DNA of 64,000 nt, from assembly GCF_001642735.1 (NCBI RefSeq), contig NZ_LWHM01000003.1:62001-126000 (forward strand), in the 5' to 3' direction. A model generated the notes under the pieces. That model was not told the origin of the DNA and made no database searches. It worked only from the letters and a program-made list of their open reading frames with translations. The position numbers and the translations under genes were made by a program. Below are positions 17,149 through 35,875 of the stretch, in pieces. The stretch comes from Pseudohongiella nitratireducens (GTDB lineage: Bacteria; Pseudomonadota; Gammaproteobacteria; Pseudomonadales; Pseudohongiellaceae). The first letter of the stretch is position 1, and every line of letters begins with the position of its first letter.

Positions 17149-17490
17149 TATGCTCTCCTGCTATTCAGCGTCATCAACCACATATTAACAACCCGCCGTC
17201 CATCAGATCAGGCAAGGGTGCAGCATGCAGACAATTCCGCCATCATTAAACTTAACACTGTCGGAAACCAGAAAGCCTCCCCGCTTCCTACTATATTTAT
17301 ACCCGTTGAGTTTCTCCATGAATATTATCGGGTTTTACGGTGATTATTGTTGGTCGGAATGGTTCAGATTGAAAAGGAGGACGGCCGAACCGTCCTAGCC
17401 TTCTGGCGAGTTTTCAATTGCGAGGATCGATCCAGCTTGCGTGGGAAAGCAGCCAGGCCATCATTTCACGTAGCGCGGCCAGTCAGCCAG

Positions 17491-17649
17491 GGCACCATAG
17501 ACCAGATTGCAGACAATAAAGACCACGTTCAGCACCTCGGGCGTCGCTCGATAAAGCGGGCGGACTGTTTGAAGCCGTCAGGCTGAGTTTCCGCCCGCCG
17601 AGCGACGCCCGAGGTGCTGTGGTCGTCTGCAATCTGGTCTATGGTGTCC
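17491..17649. repeat. Structured inverted repeat, copy 1
   Basis: An imperfect palindrome of about 159 bp. The outer stem is 22 bp perfect (17493-17514 with 17625-17646). A 6-nt A-rich bulge, a 6-bp stem, a 4-nt bulge and a 20-bp stem follow, all bulges on the left arm. The apex contains a further 9-bp stem (GCGGGCGGA with TCCGCCCGC) and a small AGCC/GGCT hairpin. A homologous element with different stem sequences is at 35707-35875. The class is unknown to me; it is not an ERIC, REP or attC element by motif. Confidence 0.9.
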
Positions 17650-17689
17650 TGGCGATACGCGATACGCGGTACGCGATATGCTAAGCACA

Positions 17690-17716
17690 ATAAAAAAGGG
17701 AGCTTGCGCTCCCTTT
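17690..17716 (-). terminator. Rho-independent terminator, minus strand
   Basis: A 9-bp stem (17695-17703 with 17708-17716) with a 4-nt loop is followed on the minus strand by a T-rich run (TTTTTTATT). It lies about 210 bp past the end of the small ORF at 17924-18001 and would end a transcript of about 340 nt, or read-through from the serine hydrolase gene. Confidence 0.75.
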
Positions 17717-17923
17717 CCGTGATGCCCGGTTCCAACGGAACCAACTCTTGCAAACTTGCTGTCAAACTTGTGGCTGGGACTGACTGTACTGCTGCCTCTT
17801 TACCAGCCAGTTACCGGCCAGAGTCGTTCATCAAACAGCTCAGGCCACTGGCAGGTTGTACAGCCTCAGCTGCAATCAGTGCCAACAAAAATCTGTCATC
17901 CGTTCAACAAGAGTGGAGTGTTA

Positions 17924-35658: not shown

Positions 35659-35686
35659 GGCGCGGCATTTGCCGCGCCTTTTTTTT
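35659..35686 (+). terminator. Rho-independent terminator of the carbonic anhydrase-SulP operon
   Basis: A perfect 8-bp GC-rich stem (35659-35666 with 35671-35678), a 4-nt loop and eight Ts. The structured repeat begins 21 bp further on. Confidence 0.93.
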
Positions 35687-35706
35687 GCCCTGCAGAAACA
35701 CGACAA

Positions 35707-35875
35707 GGTCAGTGCATCATAGATCCGAGGGCAGACAATAAGACCACGCCCAGCACATCGCTTGTTGCTCGAAAAAGCGGGCAGATTGTCTGAAGCCGAC
35801 AGGCTGAATTTCCGTCCGCCGAGCGACAAGCGATGTGCTGTGGTCGTCTGCCCTCGGATCTATGATGCACTGACC
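35707..35875. repeat. Structured inverted repeat, copy 2
   Basis: A 169-bp imperfect palindrome homologous to 17491-17649 and in the same orientation. The outer stem is 30 bp and perfect (35707-35736 with 35846-35875). The A-rich bulge (AATAA), 6-bp stem, 4-nt bulge and 20-bp stem with one G-T pair recur in the same order. The outer stem sequence is wholly different from copy 1, and four pairs inside the 20-bp stem differ by compensating changes. The apical AGCC/GGCT hairpin is kept. Confidence 0.9.

Follow-up and report, generated by a model that had tools for sequence, protein, structure and literature searches.

The window analysed here is a stretch of 64,000 nucleotides from Pseudohongiella nitratireducens (contig NZ_LWHM01000003.1, positions 62,001 to 126,000), and it carries two large inverted repeats, copy 1 at 17486-17653 and copy 2 at 35707-35875. 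Large extragenic palindromes are common in bacteria, and it is seldom evident whether what is preserved in them is the fold or the sequence. The two repeats raise this question directly: what kind of element are they, and what has evolution kept in them?

Architecture of the two hairpins

The original prediction described two elements of identical layout, in which an outer stem is followed by an A-rich left-arm bulge, a 6-bp stem, a 4-nt left-arm bulge, a 20-bp stem and an apex with an AGCC/GGCT hairpin. The fold and the layout were confirmed in both copies, while several details had to be corrected. Both copies also have a 5-nt left bulge between the 20-bp stem and the apical stem, and in both the 6-bp stem is GACCAC/GTGGTC. 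The parts, assigned from sequence and fold unless another basis is given, are as follows.

17486..17514, + strand: copy 1 outer stem, left arm, pairing with 17625-17653 (29-nt arms, 97% complementary)
17515..17520, + strand: copy 1 left-arm bulge 1, AATAAA (from sequence; usual length 5 nt in 85 of 92 copies)
17521..17526, + strand: copy 1 6-bp stem, left side, GACCAC (partner GTGGTC, 17619-17624)
17527..17530, + strand: copy 1 left-arm bulge 2 (from sequence; 4 nt in 86 of 92 copies)
17531..17550, + strand: copy 1 20-bp stem, left side, pairing with 17599-17618 (also from arm complementarity)
17551..17555, + strand: copy 1 left-arm bulge 3, ATAAA (from sequence; 5 nt in 76 of 92 copies)
17556..17598, + strand: copy 1 apical domain with a 9-bp stem, TGTYTGA/GAG internal loop and AGCC/GGCT hairpin
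17599..17653, + strand: copy 1 unbroken right arm (partners of the 20-bp, 6-bp and outer stems)
about 17691..17718, unstranded: intrinsic-terminator-like hairpin near the 3' end of copy 1 (sequence; terminator scan)
about 35659..35687, unstranded: intrinsic-terminator-like hairpin near the 5' end of copy 2 (sequence; terminator scan)
35707..35736, + strand: copy 2 outer stem, left arm, pairing with 35846-35875
35737..35741, + strand: copy 2 bulge 1, AATAA
35742..35747, + strand: copy 2 6-bp stem, left side, pairing with 35840-35845
35748..35751, + strand: copy 2 bulge 2, GCCC
35752..35771, + strand: copy 2 20-bp stem, left side, pairing with 35820-35839
35772..35776, + strand: copy 2 bulge 3, AAAAA
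35777..35819, + strand: copy 2 apical domain (from sequence)
35820..35875, + strand: copy 2 unbroken right arm

As folded DNA, copies 1 and 2 reached -75 kcal/mol (z -15.3) and -73.9 kcal/mol (z -17.3), respectively, and in both cases none of 200 dinucleotide shuffles folded as well. Bulge 1 has 6 nt in copy 1 and 5 nt in copy 2. Five pairs of the 20-bp stem are not the same in copies 1 and 2; four of these are compensated and one is G-T, exactly as had been predicted. On the other hand, the outer stem of copy 1, which had been described as 22 bp and perfect, is 29 bp long with arms that are 97% complementary. The outer stems of the two copies are also not unrelated: 23 aligned copies share the consensus GGGCATCATAGATCnGATGGCAGAC and vary by compensated changes, indicating that these stems are homologous. 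Directly 3' of copy 1, at 17655-17680, there are short tandem repeats with a GCGATAC-like unit, of which a near-identical sister copy (locus L002) has fewer.

A repeat family with one shape

In the following, G000 is the genome of P. nitratireducens itself, other G-numbers are comparison genomes and L-numbers are extracted loci. A blastn search of G000 with copy 1 returned 56 match rows. R1, a covariance model built from 23 copies of this genome, returned 77 rows, which left 40 full copies after reverse-strand echoes and truncated pieces were removed. This number is a lower bound, as R1 scored 150 of 1067 first-look candidates and missed the cluster of a third subtype. The two elements of the window are therefore members of a family with at least 40 full copies by the covariance model, in addition to truncated copies and the third subtype.

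Full-length model matches span about 160-200 nt, and the element ends read by eye are GGCACAAGG and CCGC. At least three subtypes in this genome have unlike stem sequences in the same layout: type A includes both window copies, type B is found for example at locus L011, and a divergent third subtype has four full-length matches clustered at 119.5-121.4 kb of contig C26. Within the third-subtype cluster, a HigBA-like toxin-antitoxin pair was recognised by eye at L236:17060-17690. Several arrays consist of an intact copy followed by 5'-truncated ones, and two copies on separate contigs are 97% identical and, judged by eye, have some common flank.

Beyond this genome, R1 matched 18 of 56 genomes, namely all 15 of Pseudohongiella (G000 and 14 others) and 3 of 41 more distant ones, of which two belong to the same family and one to another family in the order. 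Further copies were thus found both at home and in relatives, and their alignment allowed the pairing to be examined column by column. Alignment A1, made with MAFFT from 23 type-A copies of G000, was not fitted to a structure, and the pairs scored in it come from folding one of those copies. In A1, 97.7% of cells are paired, versus 33-44% with slid partners, and two-sided changes occur at 41 of 68 pairs, a number equalled by none of 500 shuffles. Alignments A2 and A4 were fitted to the model structure; A4 adds relatives and has 101 distinct rows, including nine reverse-strand echo rows. Two-sided changes in A4 affect 63 of 68 pairs, with a covariation score of 0.808 versus 0.198 when shuffled. 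Judged by two-sided changes, covariation is strong and survives both the slid-partner control and the shuffles.

The bulges, too, are kept in most copies. We counted them in 92 copies of the model-fitted alignment, from which nine echo rows and two duplicate rows had been removed; 40 rows come from G000 (36 of type A or B and four of the third subtype), and among the relatives G009 gives 12 of 29 and G014 gives 14 of 20 listed copies, partly from clusters. The three left-arm bulges have 5 nt in 85, 4 nt in 86 and 5 nt in 76 copies. Opposite these bulges, the right arm runs without a break in 87, 92 and 92 copies, respectively. Mean identity between copies of G000 and those of relatives is 0.485-0.506 despite the same layout. 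The stem letters are nearly free and the shape is fixed, and what evolution keeps is the fold of one strand. The original interpretation as a selected fold, either a mobile DNA hairpin or an RNA, is supported by the further copies and their strong covariation.

One strand carries the fold

Mismatches within the stems indicate which strand is folded. Counted as column events, G-T mismatches outnumber A-C mismatches 30:7 in A1 (p=2e-4) and 43:11 in A2 (p=1e-5), where the count covers 64 of 68 pairs, since four with fewer than 60% Watson-Crick cells were dropped, two of which, internal-loop columns, held 34 A-C cells. Considering that transitions from Watson-Crick pairs yield G-T and A-C equally, this bias means that pairing is kept on the strand with the A-rich bulges. 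The excess of G-T accordingly argues against a strand-symmetric repair of palindromes and against a cruciform that is read on both strands. However, G-T is better tolerated than A-C in DNA as well, and therefore the bias does not separate RNA from single-stranded DNA.

Genomic setting and history of the copies

The orientation of flanking genes was assigned by an ORF heuristic for the 30 best-scoring of the 40 copies in G000, with both flanks assigned in 28. Eighteen of these 28 lie between convergent genes, 6 and 2 between tandem genes and 2 between divergent genes, and the gene on the 5' side is co-oriented with the element in 24 of 29 copies. Of the 30 copies, 11 have a terminator-like hairpin no more than 110 nt from the 5' end and 4 have one that close to the 3' end. 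The comparison set of 600 random windows, drawn from the same loci, gave 6, but it is mostly coding and thus an unmatched control. The adjacency to a terminator that had been noted for both window copies is correct for them and does not extend to the family as a general trait, as only 1 and 2 of 39 copies in relatives have such a hairpin at the 5' and 3' ends, respectively.

Neighbouring copies are arranged head to head. Full-length neighbours less than 1 kb apart in the lists of three genomes are all in the order '- then +' (14/14), as are ten of ten further close pairs from other genomes, while the third-subtype cluster has one head-to-head pair and two same-direction pairs. In total, 25 of 27 close full-length pairs are head to head, a count that excludes truncated copies in tandem, whose orientation is that of their neighbour. 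No replication-strand bias was seen in G009, where 14 of 29 copies are co-directional (dnaA at position 679; terminus assumed opposite). In this single-contig genome, 15 of the 29 copies lie within about 0.28 Mb (G009:C1:1.82-2.10 Mb).

Copies resemble one another most within a genome: among those examined, 38 of 40 copies of G000, 10 of 12 of G009 and 12 of 14 of G014 have their nearest neighbour by identity in their own genome. This likeness suggests that copies were amplified or homogenised within lineages. Orthologous sites were recognised by flank homology, and nine comparisons of such sites, not all independent, showed 65 two-sided and 31 one-sided changes with both pairs kept, and 19 changes with the pair lost; the count omits two internal-loop pairs. 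Compensated change in place thus exceeds what is expected for inert mobile copies, and this counts against a mobile reading.

At loci L117, L176, L156 and L183, one '+' copy persists with another outer stem that again pairs with itself, one copy is absent, and one hairpin is a hybrid of two adjacent ones. L156 lacks the '+' copy that L117 and L176 carry at this site, an absence that a deletion would explain as well as an empty site. At E 1e-50, the other 14 genomes of the genus contain no match to the gene upstream of copy 2. For the gene downstream of copy 1, 13 of these genomes gave matches, the best of them 58-68% identical.

Search for a linked enzyme or a known family

A linked transposase or recombinase had been proposed as a point to check, and none was found in the flanks examined. 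The ORF clusters of loci L061-L199, which are loci outside G000, contain no recurring protein family beside the copies; the largest of those shown are spurious frames through repeat DNA or ordinary genes. Clustering of the ORFs of 30 loci of G000 with 1.5-kb flanks likewise gave no linked enzyme. The two widest clusters there (16 and 7 loci) are the hairpin itself in translation, and every other cluster shown joins only two loci. Five proteins encoded between paired hairpins 0.86-2.2 kb apart (DUF3626, MotY, SfLAP twice and a PemK-like toxin) were considered as shared cargo and look ordinary. In G009, the gene for the PemK-like toxin (L200:3860-4189) is flanked by two hairpins that stand head to head at a distance of 2.2 kb.

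The single Y1 transposase match of G000, at G000:C14:12721-12996 in a frame of 345 aa, is about 7 kb from the nearest listed copy. Y1-like long frames (about 290-345 aa) are present in most genomes of the genus and family that were searched, with or without hairpins, and counterparts of the Y1 gene were found in all six of the same-family genomes searched that have no R1 element.

Comparison with known repeat families gave no Rfam match at the gathering threshold in the window or in 15 of 111 broad-class loci (described below), where only weak sub-threshold hits appeared. Copy 1 had no blastn match in phage and plasmid collections. Viral contigs had no exact match to the broad apical pattern, a pattern that type A itself does not fit. 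No paper was recognised as describing the element in the literature searched, a body short of subscription papers and without bioRxiv preprints.

A wider class with a shared apical core

The apical domain of the copy 1 type is conserved in relatives and in a broader class of hairpins. The apical pattern GAGGACTGTYTGAG...CGAGTTCCGCANCGCC was found in 111 stretches of the genome contigs searched. Among the 80 named matches listed, most are from Gammaproteobacteria, together with Dechloromonas and other Betaproteobacteria as well as Desulfobulbaceae and their relatives; two Bacteroidales metagenome bins also carry the pattern, possibly through contamination. The 108 usable instances have 90 distinct stems, and 64 reach a stem score of at least 10, with a left bulge of 5 nt in 38, 4 nt in 13, 6 nt in 11 and another length in 2. 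Alignment A3 was pre-filtered for at least 10 of 11 stem pairs and a 5-nt bulge, which 33 of the 108 passed and of which 25 were aligned, so pairing of helix 1 is a selected property in it. Model R2 matched 18 of 369 class genomes, an undercount, as it reported only 11 matches in G000 itself. The apical loop TGTYTGA/GA with tandem G-A is conserved, and a tandem G-A loop of this kind is reminiscent of RNA internal-loop motifs. The tail that follows one broad-class hairpin (L191:5640-5990) matches a repeat of 44-51 bp that occurs in at least 38-40 places per record in seven Paraburkholderia records.

Discussion

The element is real, repeated and folded in a strand-specific manner, and within the searches made it is undescribed. 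Known extragenic palindromes are its near counterparts in kind, and its ruler-like architecture is unusual. We put at about even the chance that the copies represent a large (about 165-180 nt), non-autonomous repetitive hairpin that was probably mobile in the past and whose function needs the fold of one particular strand. The reading as a single-strand hairpin spread in trans is in keeping with the strand specificity, the one-sided bulges, the within-genome likeness and the head-to-head dimers. Under it, a trans-acting factor would read the one-sided bulges and the apical loop of the folded strand. The same factor could measure the spacing of the bulges (6 bp and 20 bp), by analogy with TnpA-REP and integron integrases, which read bulged hairpins of single-stranded DNA. 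Such recognition may have spread the element, much like REPIN/BIME or YPAL repeats as described in the consulted parts of PMC8266576, PMC3733652 and PMC2229807, and copies at gene ends would then persist. The folded strand could be DNA or read-through RNA.

Several known repeats are similar in these respects, and the descriptions compared here are those in the consulted parts of the sources. YPAL (RU-2), the Yersinia palindromic sequence of about 168 bp, has a similar length and is also intergenic, palindromic and multi-copy (PMC2229807). YPAL targets span or adjoin dyad symmetry (PMC2229807), which is comparable to the terminator-like hairpins within 110 nt of 15 of the 30 copies here. YPAL also has target-site duplications of 3-26 bp (PMC2229807), and no such duplication was established for our copies. 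Unlike our element, YPAL is described there with no mention of a one-sided bulge ruler, in a comparison by description and not by sequence (PMC2229807). ERIC (IRU, 127 bp) is likewise multi-copy and intergenic, orientation matters for it, and RNA-level effects have been proposed, but the fixed-length stem series with one-sided bulges finds no mention for ERIC in the same description-only comparison (PMC2229807). REPs are 20-40 bp long with a GTAG or CGTC tag, and TnpA-REP (RAYT) reads their bulged single-stranded hairpin strand-specifically (PMC3733652, PMC8266576). As in REP, REPIN and BIME repeats, which are extragenic, mostly between convergent or unidirectional genes, and form dimers of opposite orientation (PMC3733652, PMC8266576), our copies favour gene 3' ends and '-/+' pairs (18/28 and 25/27, respectively). 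In contrast to REPs, they are about 165-180 nt long with three left-arm bulges, no GTAG or CGTC tag stands out by eye at their ends, and the Y1 gene of G000 is not flanked by copies as a RAYT gene would be.

A structured RNA with a role for each copy at gene 3' ends is a possibility that we take seriously without expecting it to prove right. A read-through transcript would fold into a bulged rod that is bound or cleaved, and this would limit read-through into the convergent gene or set mRNA stability. The strand-specific pairing, the co-oriented 5'-side gene in 24 of 29 copies, the terminator-like hairpin just 5' of 11 of 30 copies, the compensated evolution in place and the conserved apical loop, with its resemblance to RNA motifs, all agree with such a role. 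However, a convergent region provides a gene upstream in any orientation, which makes orientation a weak argument, and the tandem sites are just 6 versus 2. The association with terminators is absent in relatives, no Rfam family matches, and G-U (G-T) makes up merely 3-4% of pairs, which is low for an RNA family. On balance, the retention of copies with compensated change at old sites and their position at gene ends, some directly following a terminator, suit an RNA role almost as well as they do the spreading hairpin.

It is improbable, in our view, that pairing is kept by templated repair (quasi-palindrome correction, arm-to-arm template switching) rather than by selection on the fold. Even close orthologues do differ more often by two-sided than by one-sided changes (65 versus 31), and the locus that is a hybrid of two neighbouring hairpins indicates that rearrangement between hairpins occurs. 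Yet such repair should erase the left-arm bulges, and each of these retains its normal length in 76 to 86 of the 92 copies. It should also make no distinction between G-T and A-C, whereas G-T is in excess. Templated correction of the arms may add to the rate of paired changes.

In integron attC sites, it is a single strand that folds, one arm carries the extrahelical bases and the stem sequence is almost unconstrained. Our element shares these traits, its strand specificity is attC-like as well, and matches to the integron integrase at or above the curated cut-off exist in 4 of 15 genomes of the genus (G002, G003, G009 and G013). Two short, fragment-like integrase matches were seen in G000 (G000:C23:206201-206452 and G000:C30:6552-6749). 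An identity as attC-like sites is nevertheless very unlikely: the inverted R-box pair RYYYAAC/GTTRRRY is present in only 3 of 92 elements on each strand, a count given without a chance expectation, the copies are scattered singly or head to head with no cassette arrays, and five order-level genomes (G038-G041 and G043) reach the integrase cut-off without an R1 match. A relic of a retron, DGR or group II intron, or a TnpB/IscB guide RNA, would account for a structured repeat with truncated copies but is hardly credible, as RVT_1 has no match in G000 (5 of 14 other genomes of the genus have one), the TnpB zinc ribbon PF07282 has none in 31 genomes, and no Rfam family matches at the gathering score.

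Beyond these readings, we would propose, tentatively and with more doubt than belief, that the element belongs to an undescribed class of large folded single-strand elements. This class would be defined by a ruler of 6- and 20-bp stems of nearly free sequence, three bulges on one arm and the apical loop GGACTGTYTGAG...CGAGTTCC common to repeats of Beta- and Gammaproteobacteria and Desulfobulbaceae, and it would be read as single-stranded DNA or RNA by an enzyme or binding protein that measures the bulge spacing.

In summary, more than 90 aligned copies, their covariation and a strand-specific mismatch bias indicate that in this family the fold of one strand is kept, and they provide exact bulges and spacings for biochemical testing. 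The apical core links the family to repeats in other proteobacterial groups, and the identity of its reader could explain many of them together.
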